From Bacillota bacterium (GTDB lineage: Bacteria; Bacillota; Limnochordia; Darwinibacteriales; DTU012): DNA of 61,683 nucleotides. Numbering within the stretch: the first letter of the stretch is position 1; every line of letters starts with the position of its first letter. Under the pieces are notes generated by a model. The model was not told the DNA's origin and did no database searches. It saw nothing but the letters and a program-made list of their open reading frames with translations. Shown piece after piece: positions 39,138 to 58,060 of the stretch. The stretch spans positions 1-61,683 of the forward strand of contig JAAYMV010000030.1 in NCBI GenBank assembly GCA_012521185.1, in the 5' to 3' direction. The position numbers and the translations under genes are program-made.

Positions 39138-39169
39138 AAAAGCCAGGGTTAGTAAACCCTGGCTTTTAT
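39138..39169 (+). terminator. bamA terminator
   Basis: Thirteen-bp perfect arms AAAAGCCAGGGTT (39138-39150) and AACCCTGGCTTTT (39155-39167) around a four-base loop. Confidence 0.85.
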
Positions 39170-39246
39170 TGGATTTGCATAGAAGTCTGTCCCTTGTTAT
39201 AATTACATTGTTGGTAATAATAATCATTATAACAGGGGGAATTATC

Positions 39247-39669
39247 TTGTTGAAAGAACGTAGATATTTAGCTATCTTTGTTGGTCTTGTAGTTTTAACT
39301 CTAGTTTTAGCTGGAGTTTTTGTATCTTCTGCTCAAGGTCAAGCGGAGCAAGAGATTGGAATAATCAATATGGAGGTTATCTTTACTGAATATTTAGCAC
39401 CTCCTCTATTTGCGGCACGTGATCAAATGCAACAAGAATTTGAAGAAAAAGCAGAAGAATTATCTGATGAAGAAAAAAATCAGTTATTTATTGACTATCA
39501 AGCTAAATTGGAAACTATTGAGATCGAATACAGCAACAATATTATGAATGCTGTAGCTAAAGTAGCAAAAACAAAAGGTTTAAGCATGGTAATTGATTCA
39601 GCAGCAGTGTTACATGGCGGTTTAGATGTAACAACCGATATTTTAAATGAATTAGCGGAACAAAAATAG
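39247..39669 (+). CDS. OmpH/Skp-like periplasmic chaperone (first copy)
   Basis: A 140-residue OmpH family protein with an N-terminal signal or anchor helix (about 6-33). IGIINMEVIF then starts the OmpH core, a charged helical tentacle (about 55-100, rich in Glu/Lys/Gln) follows, and the end strand LSMVIDSAAVLHGGLDVT resembles the OmpH/Skp pattern ADxVxxxGGxDxT. Such chaperones hold unfolded barrel proteins for BamA. TTG 39247 or 39250 follows AGGGGGA; a promoter-like TTGTTA with TAATAA 18 bases on lies upstream at 39194-39223. Confidence 0.8.
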   Translation: MLKERRYLAIFVGLVVLTLVLAGVFVSSAQGQAEQEIGIINMEVIFTEYLAPPLFAARDQMQQEFEEKAEELSDEEKNQLFIDYQAKLETIEIEYSNNIMNAVAKVAKTKGLSMVIDSAAVLHGGLDVTTDILNELAEQK

Positions 39670-39681
39670 TAGAGTTTGACT

Positions 39682-40350
39682 ATGAAGCAGACTTTAGTGC
39701 TAATCAGCTTAATTATGACTGTATTAGTCATCAGTGGGTGGCTAGGATATTCAGCAATTGAATCCTGGCCATCTATTGTCCATGCTGAACAAGCTACCAT
39801 GGATTATACAGAATATCAAAAAGAACTTAGTAAGTTAATTAAAGAATACGATTCTAAAGTACAAGCAAAAATTACAGAGTTACAGCAGAAGGGTGAAGAC
39901 GCTTTTGCTCAGAAGTTAGCTGAATCACAAGCTGCTTATGAAGAAGCCGTGCTTAGTTATCAAGAACAGTTAGCACAAGAAGCAGTAGTTACTGAAGAAA
40001 AACTGACTGAATGGTATGTAAATCCGATTATCAATTTAGAGTTACAATTGGCGATGGTTAGTTTATCTGAAGAAAAACGGCAAGAAATAATTGTTAAACT
40101 TGACCGCTTAAAGAATGAGTTTAATGAATTAAAAAGCGAATATGAACAAATGTTAGATGAAAAATTGCAAGTGTTTATGGCTAATGAAGAAGAGGTACAA
40201 AAAGCGGCCTTAAGCAGTTGGGCAGAGGATTATCAGGCAAAGTTAGCTAATGAGCTGGAAATACATGTGGCTAAACTAGAGCATCAGTTAAATAGTGAGG
40301 TTTTAAAACTTGAGTCAGCTTTGGGTAGAGCAACTACAGCTAGGGAATAA
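39682..40350 (+). CDS. Coiled-coil periplasmic protein, divergent OmpH-like (second copy)
   Basis: The 222-residue protein has an N-terminal membrane segment or signal (1-30), then almost entirely heptad-like helix rich in Glu, Lys, Gln and Ala. Within it one segment is almost without charge (WYVNPIINLELQLAMVSL near residue 115). It lacks the OmpH C-terminal strand signature, so the family link rests on composition and on its position between two OmpH genes 12 and 30 bases away. It could be an extended chaperone tentacle or a periplasm-spanning spacer. ATG 39682 is preferred to the TTG two codons earlier. Confidence 0.6.
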   Translation: MKQTLVLISLIMTVLVISGWLGYSAIESWPSIVHAEQATMDYTEYQKELSKLIKEYDSKVQAKITELQQKGEDAFAQKLAESQAAYEEAVLSYQEQLAQEAVVTEEKLTEWYVNPIINLELQLAMVSLSEEKRQEIIVKLDRLKNEFNELKSEYEQMLDEKLQVFMANEEEVQKAALSSWAEDYQAKLANELEIHVAKLEHQLNSEVLKLESALGRATTARE

Positions 40351-40380
40351 TAATGGGAGGATGAAAGGCGGTGTCCCATT

Positions 40381-40800
40381 ATGAAACAGATTCTCCAGTT
40401 GTTAGTTGCTCTTTTTTTAGGATTAATCATAGGAATTCTTTTAAGTGATAGTCAATCTGCTGTGGAGATCGGGCTAGTAAATATGGGGAAAATTGTTGAT
40501 GAAAGTCCAAAGGCTCATGAATTAAATCAGCAATTGAGCGAAATGTACCAACTTCTTTTAGCTGAAATTCAAGAGCAACGGGAAAGATTAAGTGACGAGG
40601 AATTAGCTGAGGTGGAAAAAGCAGCTTATGCCCAGTATTTGGAGTATCGTGAGCAATTAGAAAGCCAATTTCAGCAGGCCTTAGATCAGGCCATTGCTGA
40701 TGCAGCAGAGGCTGATAACATACATATTGTGTTAGATAAAGAACTAGTGCGCTATGGCGGTAAAGACCTGACTAATAAGGTAATTAAGCGCTTAGAGTAA
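40381..40800 (+). CDS. OmpH/Skp-like periplasmic chaperone (third copy)
   Basis: 139 residues: N-terminal hydrophobic segment (5-24), GLVNMGKIVDESPKAHEL as the OmpH start, a helical middle with ERLSDEELAEVEKAA, and the ending IHIVLDKELVRYGGKDLTNKVI, a clear OmpH signature. It is closer to canonical Skp than the second copy. With the two genes upstream it forms a run of three putative barrel chaperones after bamA. Confidence 0.82.
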   Translation: MKQILQLLVALFLGLIIGILLSDSQSAVEIGLVNMGKIVDESPKAHELNQQLSEMYQLLLAEIQEQRERLSDEELAEVEKAAYAQYLEYREQLESQFQQALDQAIADAAEADNIHIVLDKELVRYGGKDLTNKVIKRLE

Positions 40801-42692: not shown

Positions 42693-42705
42693 TAGAAGGG
42701 TGGTT

Positions 42706-44895
42706 ATGTTGAAAAAGGCGCTATTATTACTACTATGTAGTTTTTTGCTATTCATGGTTGGTTTAGTTGATTTAGCATCAGCCGCTTCCCCTGTGGAAAT
42801 CAGTGCTAAAGATTCAGTTCGCTTTGATTTGACCACCCATCAGTTTTTTGCTGAAGGAGATGTAGTCATCGAATTTGATGATCTTACTCTTTATGGTGAT
42901 CGTCTATTATGGGATTCAGATAAACAGATACTTTACCTTGATGGTAATGTAATAATGGAACAATCTGAGGAACGTTTCTACGGTGACAGTCTAGTTTATA
43001 ATGTGGAAACGTCTCAAGGTACATTTGAACAAGTCTATTCCGAATTTAGTGGTGAAAATATCAATGGTCTAATTTTTGTGTTTGGCGATCAAATGCACAT
43101 TGATGGTGATGATTTTCATATTGTACAGGGTAAGGTAAGTACTTGTGATTTATCCACACCTCACTATCATTTAGCTATTAAATCAATCCAGGTTTATCCA
43201 GGTGAGAAAATGATAATCCGTGGTGTTACCTACTATGAAGGTAAAATACCACTGTTTTATTGGCCATATTTAGCTATTCCCTTAGATAATCGGTTTGATG
43301 TAGACTACTTTAATTTGCCAGAAGTTGGCTATAGTGCTAAAGACGGCTATTACATCAAAAATCGTTATAATTATTTTATTACGCAAAATGCTAATGGGAC
43401 TATTTTTTATGATTATTATACAAAGCATGGTTTTGGTTTAGGTCTCAACCATAATTACGGACATCGCTCACTTGGTAAGGGTAATTTTGCTTTCTATTCT
43501 ATTCCAGCTACTCATCGACAATACTTTAGTACGCAGTTGAATCATGAATATGAGCAAGACAATTTAAAACTAACAACTAAAAATGCCTATTATCAAGAGT
43601 TAGTTGATGATATTTTGGAAGTAAAGCGGAAAACTCAAACGAGTCTCTATTATAGGCGGGAAGGTTTAACAGTAACTGGGAGTGTGAACTATGAGGATGA
43701 AATCGGCTCTAGTGAATCCCGAGACATGACTTTAGCGGGAAGTTGGAACCAAAAAATCACTCCTAATTTAGATTTAAATTTACGGGGCAGCGTTACTGCT
43801 AAAGATGATGAGAGAGTTATTAACCAATTAGCAGAAACTGCTTATCGTCTTAATAATCATACTTTTTCCTTATCCTTCCAACAACAATACAACCCGGATA
43901 TCTTAGATCCAGAGGCCACTGCTTCTTGGCGAAGTGTAAATAAGTTGCCTGAATTTACCTGGCGCTGGCAAAATCCAACTTTCAATGGTCAACGATTTCC
44001 GGGACGATTTGAGTTAGGCGTTGGACGTTATCTAGAATATCCTTCTCTGGTTGTCAGTTGGCGAGTTGCACCAAAGTTGGAACTTTCTTCACGGACATGG
44101 CGGTCAGATTTTGGAACAACTTTAACTTATAGCGGTGGTTTAGCTGGTTATTTCTATGATTACGATCTGAGTCAACAAGTTGCTCATGGGCGGATCAGTT
44201 TAGTGCAAAGTTTAACTCCTAACTTAAGATTTTCTTCCACGTATAATCGGCAAGTTGTTTTTGGAGAGACGCTCTTTAGGTTTGATCAGCAGAATCCGCG
44301 TCACACTTTAACCGGTCAGTTGTCCTATACGAATCGACCGTTTACAGCTTCCATTCGGACAGGATATAATTTTGAGTTAGAGCGTTTTGATAGTTTGGTT
44401 AAGCAAGTCAGTTGGAATAATTATAACGCAGGGTTAAATCTTAGTGCCACAATGTATTACAATTTAAACACTAAGCAGTTTGGCAATTTGGTAACCATGT
44501 TCAATTATCGACCCCATGAGCGTTTCAATATTCGGCTTGGCAGTCGTTATCAGTTAAACAATCAGCGTTTTGAACGGGTTGATAGTCAATTATCTTTTGA
44601 TTTAACTGAAAAAATTGCTGTAAAATACGATATGATTTACGATATGATTAAGCAAAAGTTTACTCGTGGAGAGTTAACCGTGACTATTGATTTGCACTGT
44701 CGTGAATTATCTTTAGCATATAATCAAGTCCGGGAAGAATTTCGGGTGAAATATTCTTTAAATGCATTTCCTAAATTACCGTTAGGTTTTAGTTCTACTG
44801 ATGGCATCAGTTTATTTGAACTTACTGACTTGCAGGAATTACTCGGGATTGACAGTGATGATGACGATGAAGAAGATGACGATGATTATGATTAG
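42706..44895 (+). CDS. lptD: LPS-assembly protein LptD-like
   Basis: A 729-residue outer-membrane translocon protein. After a signal peptide (about 1-26) an OstA-like beta-jellyroll (30-170) has EGDVVIEFDDLTLYGDRL and DGNVIMEQSEERFYGD repeats. Then comes the barrel with YYEGKIPLFYWPYLAIPL, the conserved LptD strand. It delivers glycolipid to the surface; the LptE partner is not seen. The C-terminus is unusual: after the last strand comes a run of Asp/Glu (14 residues from 44851) instead of a terminal aromatic residue. GAAGGGTGG precedes ATG 42706. Confidence 0.87.
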   Translation: MLKKALLLLLCSFLLFMVGLVDLASAASPVEISAKDSVRFDLTTHQFFAEGDVVIEFDDLTLYGDRLLWDSDKQILYLDGNVIMEQSEERFYGDSLVYNVETSQGTFEQVYSEFSGENINGLIFVFGDQMHIDGDDFHIVQGKVSTCDLSTPHYHLAIKSIQVYPGEKMIIRGVTYYEGKIPLFYWPYLAIPLDNRFDVDYFNLPEVGYSAKDGYYIKNRYNYFITQNANGTIFYDYYTKHGFGLGLNHNYGHRSLGKGNFAFYSIPATHRQYFSTQLNHEYEQDNLKLTTKNAYYQELVDDILEVKRKTQTSLYYRREGLTVTGSVNYEDEIGSSESRDMTLAGSWNQKITPNLDLNLRGSVTAKDDERVINQLAETAYRLNNHTFSLSFQQQYNPDILDPEATASWRSVNKLPEFTWRWQNPTFNGQRFPGRFELGVGRYLEYPSLVVSWRVAPKLELSSRTWRSDFGTTLTYSGGLAGYFYDYDLSQQVAHGRISLVQSLTPNLRFSSTYNRQVVFGETLFRFDQQNPRHTLTGQLSYTNRPFTASIRTGYNFELERFDSLVKQVSWNNYNAGLNLSATMYYNLNTKQFGNLVTMFNYRPHERFNIRLGSRYQLNNQRFERVDSQLSFDLTEKIAVKYDMIYDMIKQKFTRGELTVTIDLHCRELSLAYNQVREEFRVKYSLNAFPKLPLGFSSTDGISLFELTDLQELLGIDSDDDDEEDDDDYD

Positions 44896-44906
44896 AGGTG
44901 AGATAA

Positions 44907-45371
44907 GTGCGCCTTACTAAAAAAAGAGTTATTATCTTGTTGATGGCGATACTTGTCTTACTGTTAATTTGGTTTTGTAACTTTCGACCTAAAACAGAGA
45001 GTCAGTCGCCGAAACAAGAAGCTGGGGTTTCTTTTTCCAATGTATACCTGGTAGGAAATGAGTCAGGAGTCAAACAATGGGAACTAGTTAGTAAGTCATT
45101 GAAGCAAGATGGAGATAAATTTCATTTAGACGACTTAGAGTATCTGTTATTGCTGGAAAACTCTAAACCGAAATATTTTGTGGAGGCTCAGAAAGGGCTT
45201 TGGGACCGGAAAGCACAAGTTTTGACTTTAGACAATGATGTTGTGGTGGATGATCATAAAGGTTTTCGTCTACTGACTAATTCATTATTATGGTACACTG
45301 AGGAAGATGTTTTTTACTTTCACGGAGACACAATAGTAACTTTTGAAGAAGGTGGAGTGGCTAATGAGTAA
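44907..45371 (+). CDS. lptC: LptC-like bitopic transport protein
   Basis: A 154-residue protein with one N-terminal transmembrane helix (about 8-27) and a periplasmic beta-jellyroll carrying VEAQKGLWDRKAQVLTLDNDVVV. This is typical of LptC/YrbK, which passes glycolipid from LptF/G to LptA. GTG start with GAGGTGA upstream. It lies between lptD and lptA and overlaps the latter by eight bases. Confidence 0.82.
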   Translation: MRLTKKRVIILLMAILVLLLIWFCNFRPKTESQSPKQEAGVSFSNVYLVGNESGVKQWELVSKSLKQDGDKFHLDDLEYLLLLENSKPKYFVEAQKGLWDRKAQVLTLDNDVVVDDHKGFRLLTNSLLWYTEEDVFYFHGDTIVTFEEGGVANE

Positions 45372-45942
45372 CTTAAACAGGCTCTTATTAGGATTAGTAG
45401 TCTGTCTGCTTTGTGTTACGGGAATCACTGAATCTGGACTTGCTAATGAGCAAAAAGAGAAGCAAGGACAATTGGAAATTGTTGGGGTGCCGGCTCAAGC
45501 CGTAGCTGGAACTTATTATACTAAAACTGATGTTTTTTATGCTGATGTTCAGGACATTGAAGGTGCTTTTGTTCGAATAACTTACGATGATCTAGTGATT
45601 ATTGGCCGTGTGGTAGAATGGCGACGGAAAGATAATTATTTAAAGGTTACGGTTGATGCCAGTCTAGAACAGAAAGATATGAATATAATCGCTGATCAAA
45701 TTGAATATTTTACCGAGGAAGAGCGTTTATTGGCAGAAGGTAACTTACAGGTTACTACTGAAGATGCAACGGTATACGCTGACCGAATGGTTCATCTAGA
45801 AAAAGAAGAAAAAACGGACTTCTTTGCTAATGTAGCTGTTCATATTACTGATGGAAAACTTTTTGGGGATCACTTTGTAATCTATTCAGCTGAAGATCGA
45901 ATGGAATTTATTGGTAGTTTCCGCGGTGAATTTGACCGTTAG
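45364..45942 (+). CDS. lptA: LptA/OstA-like periplasmic bridge protein
   Basis: 192 residues with a signal peptide (about 1-28) and an OstA-type jellyroll: IIADQIEYFTEEERLLAEGNLQVTTEDATVYADRM is interrupted by conserved positions seen in LptA, and DGKLFGDHFVIYSAEDRMEF closes it. It would multimerise head to tail to bridge LptC and LptD. The N-terminal ~70 residues appear to be an extra degenerate repeat (YYTKTDVFYADVQDIEGAFV). ATG 45364 is seven bases after AAGGTGGAG. Confidence 0.82.
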   Translation: MSNLNRLLLGLVVCLLCVTGITESGLANEQKEKQGQLEIVGVPAQAVAGTYYTKTDVFYADVQDIEGAFVRITYDDLVIIGRVVEWRRKDNYLKVTVDASLEQKDMNIIADQIEYFTEEERLLAEGNLQVTTEDATVYADRMVHLEKEEKTDFFANVAVHITDGKLFGDHFVIYSAEDRMEFIGSFRGEFDR

Positions 45943-49049: not shown

Positions 49050-49523
49050 ATGTTAGATATAAATCAAATAATGGAACGTTTACCTCATCGGTATCCTTTT
49101 TTATTGGTGGATCGGGTTTTGGAGTTGGAAAGAGGAAAAAGAGCTGTTGTAGTTAAAAATGTAACTATTAACGAACCTTTTTTTCAAGGTCATTATCCGA
49201 ATTTGCCGGTGATGCCTGGAGTTTTAATTATTGAAGCTATGGCACAAGCAGGAGGCTTAGCTGCCGCTGTGGATAGTGATGCTGATATGGTTCCTTTATT
49301 TGCAGCTATTGATAAAGCTCGCTTTCGTCGGGTTGTTCGACCAGGCGATCAATTAATAATTACTATTGAAGTACTCAGAGCACGCGGTTCATATATTAAA
49401 GTAAAAGCTACAGCAGAAGTAGATAAAGAGTTAGCTGCTGAAGGTGAGTTAACATTTGTGCTTACGGAGAAGGGAGTTTCTAATAGCAATGGCACATCCA
49501 AAAGTGATGATAATCGGAAGTGA
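49050..49523 (+). CDS. fabZ: 3-hydroxyacyl-[ACP] dehydratase FabZ
   Basis: FabZ (157 aa) dehydrates 3-hydroxyacyl-ACP in fatty acid elongation. The N-terminus IMERLPHRYPFLLVDRV and catalytic His48 (QGHYPNLPVMPG) and Glu62 (IIEAMAQ) are canonical. In Gram-negatives fabZ lies in lpxD-fabZ-lpxA-lpxB because both pathways share 3-hydroxyacyl-ACP. Here the lpxB-like gene overlaps its 3' end by 35 bases and lpxA is not between them. AAGGTGATG precedes the start. Confidence 0.94.
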   Translation: MLDINQIMERLPHRYPFLLVDRVLELERGKRAVVVKNVTINEPFFQGHYPNLPVMPGVLIIEAMAQAGGLAAAVDSDADMVPLFAAIDKARFRRVVRPGDQLIITIEVLRARGSYIKVKATAEVDKELAAEGELTFVLTEKGVSNSNGTSKSDDNRK

Positions 49524-50625
49524 CAGTGCTAGTGATCTTTACGGTAGTGAATTAGCTAAGCGACTAATTCAAAAAGCGGAAGATATTAGCTTATTTGGTG
49601 TTGGCGGGGGATTGATGCAAGGGTCTGGTGTCGAACTGCTTTATGACATATCAGGCTTAAACAGTATTGGAGCTTGTGATTCAACAAAAGGCAACCATAT
49701 TATTAAACGGTTAGTTAAAAGATTGATTGAAACAATGGATATGGAGCAACCTGATTTAGTTATCCAGATTGGCCTACCAGTTTTTAATTTGCGAATTACT
49801 GAATTTGCTAAGTCCAAAGGTATTCCAGTTTTTTATTATAACACTCCAATAAATTGGTGTTGTAACGAAGTTAAGATTAATAGGCTGGCTAAAACCGTAG
49901 ATCAGGTAATCGGTGTATCTCGCTATGAGGTAAATGTTTGTAATGAGAACCAGATTACTGCCGATTTTATCGGCCATCCCTTAGTGGATATAGCACAGAC
50001 TAATAAATCTCGTGAAGAATTACTTGATGAATATCAGCTAGATGGTTCTCGCCCGACAGTGGTGTTTTTACCTGGTACTAGGCAGATTGATGTGAAAGTT
50101 TTATTTCCAACCATGTTAAAAACTATAAAAAAAATCCAGAATGAATTGCCGGCAGTTCAGATAATTGTAGGCATAGCTCCGAATACTATTAGCCAGCAAT
50201 GGATTGATACTTTGATTGAGCAATTTGAAGTAGAAAGATTTACTATTACAGCAGATACCCATGGTATCTTACATGTTTGCGATTTAGCAGTGGTTAACAG
50301 CGGTTTTGAAAGTATTGAAGCCTCATTGGCGAATGTTCCGACTATTGCTGTTCAAAAATTCACTAATTCCAATTTATTTGGTCAGAGGATTAATCGAACG
50401 GAATATTTTTCAATGATTAATTTTTTAATGCAAGATGAAGTGGTATTGGAATTGGTAGATAATGACTTTTCTGAAGCGAAGATTTTTGAAGCGGTAGGAT
50501 TTTTGTTAGAAAATAAGCAGGAAAGAGCAAATATTTTAGCTGGGTATTCTGGTTTAACAGAAGAATTAGGTTCGCCAGGTACGATTGATAAAGCTGCTGA
50601 GTTGATTTTTGCTAAGTTGGATTAG
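49489..50625 (+). CDS. Divergent lipid-A-disaccharide synthase-like glycosyltransferase (LpxB-like)
   Basis: A 378-residue GT19/GT-B type protein: [15 protein letters not shown] at the N-terminus where LpxB has AGEx[28 protein letters not shown] where LpxB has (I)DAPDFN, the HPLVD and PGTRQ motifs of the C-terminal nucleotide-sugar domain, and [10 protein letters not shown] where LpxB has SGTATLE. The overall frame is LpxB, but several near-invariant acidic residues (Glu of AGExSGD, both Asp of DAPDFN) are replaced, so substrate or chemistry may differ. ATG 49489 lies 12 bases after AAGGGAG, inside fabZ. Confidence 0.7.
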
Positions 50626-50635
50626 GAGAGTACTT

Positions 50636-51355
50636 ATGAGCATAATCGCTGAAAATCTAGTCAAGTATTATTCCAAACGTTGTGTAGTTAATGGAGTTAG
50701 TTTAGAAGTAAAACGGGGAGAAATTGTTGGATTATTAGGACCGAATGGTGCTGGAAAAACGACAACTTTTTCAATGATTGTCGGCTTGGAGAAAGCTAAT
50801 TCTGGTGAAATTTACTTAGATGAACATAGGATTACCGATTTACCAATGTACACTCGCGGTTTGCTGGGCATTGCTTATTTACCACAAGAACCATCAGTTT
50901 TTCGTAAATTAACTGTGGAGCAAAATATTTTAGCAATTTTAGAGTTACGTGATTTATCGGTAGCTGAGCGAAAGGCTAGATTAAATCAACTCCTAGCAGA
51001 ATTTCATTTAGAACATGTTAGCAAACAAAAAGGCAGTCAATTATCTGGTGGCGAACGACGTCGAACAGAGATTGCTAGGGCTTTAGGCAGTAATCCGTCT
51101 TTTTTATTGTTGGACGAGCCTTTTGCTGGAGTAGATCCGATTGCAGTAGCAGAAATTCAACAGATAATTTCTTTGTTAAGGCAGAAGAATTTAGGGATTT
51201 TAATTACCGACCACAATGTTAGAGAGACATTGCGAATTACTGATCGAGCCTATATTTTACGACAAGGAGAAATATTGGTTTCTGGAACTGCTGAAGAGGT
51301 TGCTGATAATAGTTTGGCTCGTAAGTACTATTTGGGTGAAGAGTTTCAGTTATAG
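50636..51355 (+). CDS. lptB: LPS export ABC transporter ATPase LptB
   Basis: LptB (239 aa) powers extraction of glycolipid by Lpt[19 protein letters not shown] (Walker A), [20 protein letters not shown] (the LptB-type Q-loop), [15 protein letters not shown] (signature; R-R-R-x-E is typical of LptB), [19 protein letters not shown] and [10 protein letters not shown] are diagnostic. ATG 50636 follows AGGAGAG. It sits 8 kb from lptF/G-D-C-A in the same orientation, after the lpxB-like gene. Confidence 0.94.
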
Positions 51356-55236: not shown

Positions 55237-55668
55237 GTGAAAAGCATAGAAAAAATTTTAGCAATTGATCCTGGGAAATTAAAATGTGGTATAGCAGTTG
55301 TTGAACAAGAGCGTGTTAAGTTACAGGAAGTTGTCATGCGCAGCCAGTTAATTTCCCGCCTAAAAACAATTATTCCAAAGGTTGATGTAGTAGTGTTAGG
55401 AGATGGAACTGGCTCGGAGATTTTTAAAGCAGAGTTGTTTTCAAGTTTTGCCGGGTTAAATTCAAAGTTGGTAATTGTTGATGAACAATTTTCCACGGTT
55501 GAAGCTCGTGCTTTATATTGGCAGAAAAATCCGCCAAAAGGATGGCGTAAGTTACTTCCTGTAGCAATGCAAACTCCTCCAGTAGCCTATGATGACTATG
55601 TAGCAGTAATTTTAGCTCAACGATACCAGAAAATGCTACTGGAAAAGGGGTCTGAATTCTCTAGTTAG
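55237..55668 (+). CDS. YqgF/RuvX-like RNase H-fold nuclease
   Basis: A 143-residue protein with the RuvC-like core: LAIDPGKLKCGIAVVE (first catalytic Asp), VVVLGDGTGS, DEQFSTVEARALYW (catalytic Glu and the ST.EA motif of YqgF), and PVAYDDYVAVILAQRY (final Asp pair). YqgF matures pre-16S rRNA in many bacteria, but this is a divergent type found in diderm Firmicutes and cyanobacteria beside DUF3084 genes. GTG start with AAAGGGG upstream. The genome may have another, canonical ruvX. Confidence 0.75.
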   Translation: MKSIEKILAIDPGKLKCGIAVVEQERVKLQEVVMRSQLISRLKTIIPKVDVVVLGDGTGSEIFKAELFSSFAGLNSKLVIVDEQFSTVEARALYWQKNPPKGWRKLLPVAMQTPPVAYDDYVAVILAQRYQKMLLEKGSEFSS

Positions 55669-55744
55669 GGGAGGTTTTTAGGGGAGATTGGAGAAATATA
55701 TTCTAGTATAGTTAAAATCTAGTGGATTGTGGGAGGTGGTTGTT

Positions 55745-57088
55745 GTGCAAAAGTATCTAGCGATTGTGATACTTTTGGTATTGTTTATCCACTCGCCAAC
55801 AGCCAATTCCAGTGATTTAATCCCAGAACAATGGATTTATGATGCCGTTGAATATCTTAATGGATTTCAGATACAAAGTCAGAAAGAAGGAATTCGTTCT
55901 TTAAATCGTTACCAAGTTGCTTTATCCCTAGCTAACATTATCCAAAACTTGGAATTGTCTCATCCTTCGTTGGTGCAGCGGTTTGGTGTGAGTAAGGAAA
56001 TATATTTAAGAGAAATTGTCCAGACCTACAATGCATCTGTTGACAGCGAGCTACGCTTACCTGAGGAATATCTTCAAGTATTAAGTAAGTTAGCTCTTGA
56101 ATTCCATGAAGAGTTAGAGGTTCTCGGATATGCGGTACAAGATGCAGGTGAGATACAACGAGCTGTTAGTGCTCAGCGAGGTTTTCCGATTGCCAATACT
56201 TATGCAGCTGCCATAGGCGATCGAAAGCTGCCAAGTAATGGGCAAGCAGCCGTATCTTTTAAGGAACGATATAGTTATCTTGATTCATTATTTGATCCAG
56301 ACGCATCTGCGAAAGATCTGACTTTAGATGGAGAAATAATCTCTAGTGAAGATTTTATGCTTGGTGCTGTCTTGACCTTACATGAAATAGAGGAAGATGT
56401 TCAAGTACCTGGGGTTGCTGGATTGGCCGGCAAATACTTATTTAATAAGGATTTTGTTTTAGAAGGCAAATATTTGCACAATCTTGATGCGCCTCTTGGT
56501 TCAGGGGTCTTTCAATTAGGGGCAACCGTTAAACTTGGCGACCTAGAGTTAGGTGGAGTACTACGTGCTTTGCAATCAAAGGTGGAAAATACTGAACCTC
56601 AAAATAGAGCAGGTTACGAGTTGTCTTTGAAATTAGGAGACTTGATGGTTTCTACCGGAAGAGATCCTTTAGTCAACCAGGGAGAGGGACAAGGAAATTC
56701 TTCTTATACAACCAGTGTTGATCTTCGTTACGGTATGCCAGATTCTATATTGTTTAGTGCTGGTTACCAAATCGAATCTGAATTAAAGTCCATTGATGAG
56801 TTAGGCAAACCTTCTACAACTAGTTTAGGTCTTGATATACCGATTCCTCAAGGAAGACTTAAGTTTGGTTTGACTCAAGAGAAGTTAGTTGCTAGTGAAC
56901 AATCGGAACCAACAAGTGAGCCTGATGGACAAGGGGATTTATCAGGTAAACAAACAGCTCTAGTAGGTTTAAGCTATGCTTTAGGCAATGAAGCTGATTT
57001 AAAATTAAATTATTATCGTTTTATTAATTTTGACGATCTGGGAAGTAGTGCTCACGATTACACAGCAGAGTTTTCATTTCGGTTTTAG
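55745..57088 (+). CDS. Outer membrane barrel protein with degenerate SLH-like N-terminus
   Basis: A 447-residue protein: signal peptide (about 1-22), then IPEQWIYDAVEYLNGFQIQ with LNRYQVALSLANI, which has the spacing of an SLH domain but lacks its core GYPDG and TR motifs. A helical region (about 75-150) and a barrel region (about 195-447) with amphipathic strands follow, ending AEFSFRF. It looks like a second OmpM-type protein whose wall-binding module has decayed or been re-specialised. GTG 55745 follows GGGAGG by eight bases. It is followed closely by the repeat protein gene. Confidence 0.62.
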   Translation: MQKYLAIVILLVLFIHSPTANSSDLIPEQWIYDAVEYLNGFQIQSQKEGIRSLNRYQVALSLANIIQNLELSHPSLVQRFGVSKEIYLREIVQTYNASVDSELRLPEEYLQVLSKLALEFHEELEVLGYAVQDAGEIQRAVSAQRGFPIANTYAAAIGDRKLPSNGQAAVSFKERYSYLDSLFDPDASAKDLTLDGEIISSEDFMLGAVLTLHEIEEDVQVPGVAGLAGKYLFNKDFVLEGKYLHNLDAPLGSGVFQLGATVKLGDLELGGVLRALQSKVENTEPQNRAGYELSLKLGDLMVSTGRDPLVNQGEGQGNSSYTTSVDLRYGMPDSILFSAGYQIESELKSIDELGKPSTTSLGLDIPIPQGRLKFGLTQEKLVASEQSEPTSEPDGQGDLSGKQTALVGLSYALGNEADLKLNYYRFINFDDLGSSAHDYTAEFSFRF

Positions 57089-57102: not shown

Positions 57103-58035
57103 ATGGTTTTGAGGTTCAAATTTATTAGCATGATTCTAATTGTTGGCTTGCTCTGTAGTTCGATTCCTGTTGCTGCTCAAACTACAGTAACACCTGTTAC
57201 TGTTTTAGCTGATTTAGAAGAAGTGTTATATGGCGCTCCGCAGGAAGGTTCTTTATTGTTCCGATTGGAGCAGGTTGAATTTGAAATTTTTGGTAGTCCA
57301 CAAAGCGGGCCAGTACTTAACCGGATTCAACGGGCTCGTAATTATTTAGATAGTAATGCATCTGGTTCAAACTTAAAAGCCCAATTAAACTTAGCCGAAT
57401 GGGGTTTCTTAGCTAAAATTACCGATGGAGAGCCTTTACGACAACGACTAGCCAATATTGAAACAGAACTTTTTGGTGTTCCTCAGGAAGGACCAGTGAC
57501 TGAGAGAATAGAGCAATTAATGATGTTCATTTGGGGAACTACAGAACTTGATTCTGTAGCTGTAGAAGTTAAGGAACAAAGTTTAATTAAAATTCGGCTG
57601 CTAACGACACTGGATTCTTCCGCTAATCAGGTTGGAGACATTGTTCGCTATCGGGTTGTTGAAGATTTAATGGTTGATGGTCGCGTTGTTGTTCCAAAGG
57701 GCGCTGAAGGCTTTGGGCGTGTAAAAGAGGTCGTTACCGCTGGTTCTGTTGGCCGGGATGGTCGGGTGGTAATTGATTTTGGTGCAGTGCCAGCTTTAGA
57801 CGGCAGCGGCATCCCAATAAGAATTTCAGAAAGAGCAACCGAAAAGAATCGTTCGTTAGAATTAGCTGCTGGTGCTAGTATGGCTGGAATTATGCTTTTA
57901 GGGTCACCAGTAGGATTAGTTGGAGGTTACTTTGTAAAAGGTAAAGATGTACAGATTCCTGTAGGAACAGAGTTCTATGTAGAGACAGCCCGTACCACTC
58001 AAGTGTTAGGTTTTAGTTTAGTACCTGTTTACTAA
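57103..58035 (+). CDS. Secreted repeat protein of unknown family
   Basis: A 310-residue exported protein. After a signal peptide (1-26) the first half contains three copies of a short motif, (L/I)(Y/F)GxPQxGxxxxR(L/I), at about residues 42-56, 62-75 and 122-136, separated by helical text. The second half (about 160-305) has IRLLTTLDSSANQVGDIVRYRV and VPKGAEGFGRV, a pattern seen in beta-rich envelope proteins, and a hydrophobic hairpin AGASMAGIMLLGSPVGLVGGYF near 260. No named family is recognised. ATG 57103 is only three bases after GGAGG; TTG 57109 at nine bases is possible. It ends at a terminator. Confidence 0.6.
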   Translation: MVLRFKFISMILIVGLLCSSIPVAAQTTVTPVTVLADLEEVLYGAPQEGSLLFRLEQVEFEIFGSPQSGPVLNRIQRARNYLDSNASGSNLKAQLNLAEWGFLAKITDGEPLRQRLANIETELFGVPQEGPVTERIEQLMMFIWGTTELDSVAVEVKEQSLIKIRLLTTLDSSANQVGDIVRYRVVEDLMVDGRVVVPKGAEGFGRVKEVVTAGSVGRDGRVVIDFGAVPALDGSGIPIRISERATEKNRSLELAAGASMAGIMLLGSPVGLVGGYFVKGKDVQIPVGTEFYVETARTTQVLGFSLVPVY

Positions 58036-58036
58036 T

Positions 58037-58060
58037 AAGACCGCCTCAGGGCGGTCTTTA
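58037..58060 (+). terminator. Terminator after the repeat protein gene
   Basis: AAGACCGCC (58037-58045) and GGCGGTCTT (58050-58058) around a TCAG loop, followed by TT only; a stable stem with a weak T-run. Confidence 0.7.

Follow-up and report, generated by a model that had tools for sequence, protein, structure and literature searches.

An exported protein family of diderm Firmicutes with a six-helix repeat and a predicted VirB10-like domain, a candidate part of the outer membrane

We describe an unnamed exported protein, encoded in a stretch of 61,683 nucleotides from a Bacillota bacterium (contig JAAYMV010000030.1 of assembly GCA_012521185.1; hereafter, the window), whose 310 residues comprise, in this order, a signal peptide, a six-helix repeat domain and a VirB10-like C-terminal domain. 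Since its family is exported, single-copy and present in most outer-membrane-bearing relatives, and given these two domains, we regard it as a candidate part of outer-membrane building or organising. Our preferred reading, held tentatively and with slightly less than even confidence, is that of an outer-membrane-associated, probably ring-forming scaffold, present as one copy in most diderm Firmicutes and working with barrels. The family, which is single-copy, accompanies Omp85 throughout the phylum and has LptD- or OmpM-type neighbours, offers a concrete candidate for testing; it bears on how diderm Firmicutes build their outer membrane and on why this membrane was lost several times, and it hints at VirB10-type domains beyond type IV secretion.

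The export signal and the helix repeat

The gene and the features of its first half are listed below. Residue numbers follow a 308-residue count from the codon at 57109, and numbers from the ATG start are higher by two.

57103..58035, + strand: unnamed exported-protein gene, 310 aa, ATG start, with a GGAGG-type ribosome site ahead
57103..57177, + strand: signal peptide, likely cleaved after VAA (predicted site)
57193..57534, + strand: repeat domain, six 13-residue helices spaced by 20-21 residues in the model (self-comparison offsets 20 and 61)
57226..57267, + strand: motif copy 1, LYGAPQEGSLLFRL, strict pattern match
57286..57327, + strand: motif copy 2, IFGSPQSGPVLNRI, strict pattern match
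57397..57447, + strand: degenerate unit (E97, W98 ... R113), missed by the first-pass annotation and conserved in members
57469..57510, + strand: motif copy at residues 121-134, LFGVPQEGPVTERI, strict pattern match

The first-pass annotation had called this a signal-peptide protein, and both the reading frame and the export signal are as it described, with an AxA-type box in 50 of 50 aligned members (permissive pattern). A lipobox-like signal appears in one of the 50, and the family thus does not carry the lipoprotein signal of LptE. No match above cut-off was obtained for the protein in Pfam, NCBIfam or the PDB sequences, and profile searches of the PDB returned weak rows only, with no evident relation to the family. 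Moreover, the viral contigs scanned contained no relative, the plasmids searched gave two weak partial matches and no more, and an Rfam scan of the window found no match. The protein's own genome holds a second, weak match (E 0.0165) to residues 110-176.

Three short copies of the motif (L/I)(Y/F)GxPQxGxxxxR(L/I) had been reported from the first half of the protein, and they are indeed there: the strict pattern matches at residues 40, 60 and 121, none of 20,000 shuffles of this protein contains it, and a fourth unit is degenerate. When residues 29-149 are compared with themselves, similarity is highest at offsets of 20 (z 5.5) and 61 (z 6.2), which points to a 20-residue unit and to a likely duplication of a three-unit block. 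Identical in all 50 aligned members are E37, R52, E57, R72, R113, E118, R133 and W98, and E97 is kept in 48 of them; the E-to-R distances within units are 15, 15, 16 and 15 residues, a conserved spacing that argues for four E...R units and not three. With regard to the motif letters at units 1, 2 and 4, the G preceding PQ is kept in 50, 49 and 50 of the 50 members, Q in 37, 20 and 26, and P in only 8, 5 and 14. Thus, of the repeat as first described, the G and the E...R pairs stand, whereas the 'GxPQ' lettering is peculiar to the window copy, with 'PQ' outside the conserved part of the repeat. The first-pass annotation had made its proposal depend on close homologues having the repeat, and we found it kept in the close as well as the distant aligned ones.

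An AF2 model of the full protein (pLDDT 87.8, pTM 0.79) places helices at residues 29-41, 49-61, 69-81, 89-101, 110-122 and 130-142, followed by a beta domain at 149-303, and modelling the repeat domain by itself reproduces all six helices (pLDDT 87.9). Across the hairpin, the E of one helix probably pairs with the R of the next. The repeat domain (residues 26-150) has no Pfam match above cut-off; compared alone with PDB folds, it gave no Foldseek match at E ≤ 0.001, with a few weak rows on a further look, and a best VIA-align Z of 2.9, which is not proof of a new fold. Helical repeats of similar look may also occur in cyanobacterial proteins. A search of 60 genomes gave no further protein with this domain at E ≤ 0.01, and at this threshold it is single-copy per genome; weaker rows had E values of 0.024, 0.058 and 0.077 (G266, G010 and G048, respectively).

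The VirB10-like domain and type IV secretion

The second half of the protein contains two features:

57553..58017, + strand: VirB10/TrbI-like C-terminal beta domain (best Foldseek E 5.9e-6, best VIA-align Z 9.8, Pfam TrbI below cut-off)
57847..57939, + strand: conserved glycine-rich hydrophobic hairpin, placed by eye where VirB10 has its antenna and modelled with low confidence

For the beta domain, the top 16 Foldseek rows consist without exception of chains from type IV secretion outer-membrane complexes or ComB10, with E values from 5.9e-6 to 3.5e-3 and TM-scores that are low on query length (0.22-0.27). VIA-align agrees: its 14 top entries, with Z from 9.8 down to 5.4, are all of this kind, and a different fold first turns up at Z 4.6; the best entry, 6gyb_C, aligns 122 residues at an rmsd of 3.6. 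We read the unnamed chains among these matches as the VirB10-type subunit. The predicted model therefore has the C-terminal domain fold of VirB10/TrbI (PF03743; TraF, TrwE, CagY, ComB10), a beta fold that the 14 best entries share with it along some 100-130 aligned residues. The first-pass annotation had considered the family unrecognised, and a confident match to a characterised domain as telling against it. This needs dividing: the family is unnamed and its repeat half is unmatched, but the C-terminal half, left uninterpreted at that stage, resembles VirB10.

Sequence evidence for this relationship is weaker than the fold evidence and agrees with it in register. Pfam TrbI (PF03743) scores 13.6 bits in the window protein (E 0.063), well under the curated cut-off of 35, and reaches E ≤ 0.1 in 18 of the 50 members, with a best E of 6.5e-6. 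An hhalign comparison of small alignments, namely, 21 C-terminal domains of the family and seven of plasmid VirB10s, was collinear with P 0.0033 and an hhalign probability of only 9.7%, against P 0.21 and 0.97 in two control comparisons.

The likeness extends to the placing, by eye, of a hydrophobic element between the strand after a conserved 'DG' and the last strands, and it ends at the N-terminus. There, VirB10 has an inner-membrane anchor and a linker, whereas the window protein has a helix-repeat domain behind a signal peptide. The C-terminal domain also occurs alone, as C-terminal-only second matches of the profile in several genomes. One genome, G051, holds besides a full-length family member a lipoprotein-like protein of 200 aa (L060:6638-7237) that consists of the VirB10-like C-terminal domain and lacks the conserved hydrophobic hairpin. 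VirB10 itself spans both membranes, according to passages of PMC9371333.

Residues 243-280, around the hairpin, are the best conserved region, with a mean conservation of 0.73 compared with 0.51-0.59 elsewhere in the mature protein. The VirB10 antenna is a two-helix element that crosses the outer membrane, and the hairpin at the same place, of some 30 residues, is shorter, about half as long by eye. Given this length and the low confidence with which it is modelled (pLDDT of 59, 42 and 69 by blocks of ten over residues 251-280), it may not cross the membrane.

The resemblance raises the idea that the protein is a relic or stray piece of a type IV secretion system, which the VirB10-like domain invites and which the genomes make hardly credible. 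First, VirB9 (CagX, PF03524) had no match in the window's genome, where the window protein is the sole TrbI match, so that the protein has no VirB9 with which to form a core complex as VirB10 does. Second, CagX/VirB9 was found in 4 of 80 family-positive genomes (G393 and G450 left out). Third, the protein is kept as a single copy, with an added domain and in an Lpt/OmpM neighbourhood. We therefore dropped membership in a type IV secretion system on account of the VirB9 results. Among the open-licence PMC papers, none was found that joins VirB10 with diderm Firmicutes, and VirB10 together with Selenomonas gives only matter that looks unrelated.

Distribution with Omp85 and lipid A genes

With the window protein as query (E ≤ 0.01), a match was found in 72 of 100 genomes, its own counted: 33 of 35 others of the same family or order, 33 of 36 from the rest of the class and 5 of 28 from the rest of the phylum. 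A 50-row profile (E ≤ 1e-6) detected the family in 83 of 398 Bacillota genomes, an even draw across the phylum in which most genomes are at least 90% complete. Named relatives include Limnochordia MAGs, Selenomonas ruminantium, Mitsuokella and Pectinatus. In three genomes of one family (G078, G158 and G186) the profile matches contain a single in-frame stop codon.

Omp85 (PF01103) occurs in 100 of the 398 genomes, and these include 82 of the 83 that are family-positive (Fisher p 5.9e-66, on genome counts that ignore relatedness). The one exception, G393, has the family and no Omp85 match in a genome that is 91% complete. Conversely, the protein is missing from 18 of the 100 Omp85 genomes, of which 11 belong to one taxonomic family (f35), and it is therefore not universally needed. 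Rerunning the profile at E ≤ 1 in nine of these 18 genomes gave chance-level rows only, while the same rerun recovered the family again in G393.

Over the 79 genomes covered by a search for LpxC, this enzyme was found in 51 of 61 family-positive genomes and in 17 of the 18 that have Omp85 and lack the family. Of the genomes checked for LpxD, all 13 in the LpxC-less or closely related group were without it, and all five others had it. Thus, the family tracks the outer membrane more than lipid A, and strict dependence on LPS was dropped in view of the 10 family-positive genomes without LpxC and the 17 family-negative ones with it. Neither LpxC nor LpxD had a match in the window's genome (G000), nor in G004 and G010, and the Lpt bridge of the window's genome may transport some lipid that is not canonical lipid A. 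The window itself has LptD and an LpxB-like gene, together with look-alikes, by eye, of LptA, LptB, LptC and LptF (42700-45942 and 49456-51355).

These patterns bear on the strongest rival to a scaffold, namely, that the protein partners LptD and substitutes functionally for LptE, aiding LptD folding or the passage of lipid to the surface, which we consider unlikely. An LptD profile match was obtained in all 30 family-positive genomes tested, 10 of them without LpxC, with a profile (A7) that may also pick up LptA/LptC-type proteins. The same match, along with LpxC, is present in 17 of the 18 Omp85 genomes without the family, where LptD accordingly works without it, and the lack of LpxC in 10 of 61 family-positive genomes makes canonical lipid A an unlikely cargo in those. 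LptE is a small lipoprotein plug; the two are alike in being proposed as LptD partners at the outer membrane, but the present protein has 310 aa, a signal of the signal-peptidase-I type and another fold. The difference in fold counts against the substitution.

Gene neighbourhoods and the proposed role

The following features surround the gene or were used to label neighbours:

42700..44895, + strand: LptD of the window's genome, a profile match with OstA_2 above and LptD_N below cut-off, not adjacent to the family gene here
55237..55668, + strand: divergent RuvX-like gene, below cut-off in Pfam (RuvX 2.8e-5) and probably the outer-membrane cluster's COG0816 gene
55727..57088, + strand: barrel-like protein, the upstream neighbour, frequent in the class, with no Pfam family above cut-off
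58037..58058, + strand: terminator-like hairpin directly after the stop codon and before the SLBB gene, 9 bp, GC-rich, -16.3 kcal/mol, z -4.3

Neighbourhoods were counted over 70 of 78 fetched loci, one per genome in 70 genomes, using labels assigned by BLAST to the window's proteins (LptD, barrel, RuvX and SLBB; E ≤ 1e-3), which may miss divergent copies. Eight loci (L056-L061, L070 and L195), whose family match is weaker than 1e-30 or missing, were left out. Among the 56 loci with at least 4.5 kb of upstream sequence, a RuvX-like gene lies within 5 kb upstream in 37 and an OmpM- or barrel-type match within 2.5 kb upstream in 35. Downstream, over the 63 loci with at least 2 kb of sequence, an LptD-like gene follows within 0.4 kb in 23 and an SLBB match within 3 kb in eight. 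Five Negativicute contig loci (L114, L117, L121, L122 and L126) had no neighbour that matched a window protein, and some Negativicute-like loci, L207, L208 and L210 among them, have no LptD match nearby. The upstream RuvX-like and DUF3084 genes of the window look like COG0816 and COG4372 and lie in the same gene cluster; these two are, with COG750, the three unknown outer-membrane-cluster proteins of diderm Firmicutes named in the section of Antunes et al. (PMC5007114) considered here, a list in which the present family does not figure.

The gene does lie between a barrel-like gene and an SLBB gene, as the first-pass annotation had pointed out in suggesting a role in surface polymer or barrel assembly. 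The barrel side of that suggestion agrees with the linkage just given; the polymer side, namely, that the protein serves the adjacently encoded SLBB polysaccharide exporter as an accessory, is very improbable. Its adjacency is seen in the window, in the eight loci and in two that were left out (L056 and L059, which with L057 and L058 are four divergent class members with a barrel-type gene upstream), a frequency short of the linkage expected of an SLBB/Wza partner. In the remaining 55 of 63 loci BLAST found no SLBB match within 3 kb downstream, although a divergent SLBB could escape it, and in the window the terminator-like hairpin separates the two genes and makes their co-transcription doubtful; this hairpin has a short T-tail and is not on the consensus terminator list. 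We dropped the polymer reading for these two reasons, the low count and the hairpin.

In 23 of 63 loci the gene is directly followed by an LptD-like gene, which speaks for an LptD partner; the absence of this arrangement from the window and from many of its relatives speaks against one. In 25 loci with such a neighbour, gaps range from -88 to 310 bp and the neighbours have about 420-660 aa. When five of them were compared with Pfam, three had LptD_N or LptC above cut-off, one had DUF3769 above and LptD_N below cut-off, and that of L211 had no match.

A published observation touches on both the location and the partner. Poppleton et al. (2017, PMC5491611) detected Vpar_0645 and Vpar_0646 of Veillonella parvula, encoded upstream of lptD (Vpar_0647), in whole cells as well as in the outer-membrane and surface-exposed fractions. 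In that paper the location prediction for Vpar_0646 is 'Unclear', no domain was seen in it, LptE was not found in Veillonella, and an Lpt or LptE-like role is suggested for Vpar_0645/0646. Locus L203 (genome G420) has the same three-gene layout, namely, an ORF of 157 aa, a family member and LptD, over 3,265 bp by hand count as opposed to 3,259 bp from the legend coordinates given in PMC5491611. From this matching layout and cluster length, that is, by gene order and not by sequence, we take Vpar_0646 as a probable family member. The 157-aa ORF of L203 (8245-8715) is exported, lies upstream of the family member, corresponds by layout to Vpar_0645 and has no Pfam match. According to PMC5491611, vpar_0646 and lptD are conserved in sequence and synteny throughout the Negativicutes, a wording with which L207, L208 and L210 are at odds. 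Among open-licence PMC papers, Vpar_0646 was found in this one only.

If Vpar_0646 is the orthologue that it appears to be, the window protein would likewise reside at the outer membrane. The detection of Vpar_0646 and LptD together in the outer-membrane fraction, as reported in PMC5491611, favours the LptD partner, and that of Vpar_0646 in the outer-membrane and surface-exposed fractions argues against a further possibility, rather improbable in our view, in which the protein stays soluble in the periplasm, acts as a chaperone or assembly factor on barrels of the outer membrane, and uses its hairpin only to bind hydrophobic clients. The barrel-type match upstream in 35 of 56 loci fits such a factor, as do the shortness and low model confidence of the hairpin and repeat helices that could hold clients, but the hairpin occupies the place of the membrane-inserting element of VirB10.

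For the scaffold that we prefer, the sequence of events would be as follows. First, the protein would be exported by Sec. Second, its VirB10-like C-terminal domains would probably pack with their own copies into a ring against the outer membrane, into which the conserved hydrophobic hairpin would be inserted, as the VirB10 antenna is in type IV secretion systems. Third, the six-helix repeat domain would hang in the periplasm and dock barrels (OmpM-type porins, LptD), aiding their placement or use. A broader and decidedly speculative extension, which we think improbable, is that a secretion-independent VirB10-like ring is a general element of the diderm-Firmicute outer membrane, opening a helical passage or platform in it where the new six-helix repeat docks LptD and OmpM-type barrels. 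If true, the VirB10 fold would also belong to housekeeping outer-membrane biology, whether this role preceded or followed that in conjugation.

Two minor observations concern further genes. After BamA, the window has three tandem small exported ORFs that are Skp/OmpH-like by eye (39169-40800). Four genomes (G117, G393, G229 and G437) have two LptD-like genes each; in G117 and G393 the shorter of the two adjoins the family member and the longer one lies elsewhere.
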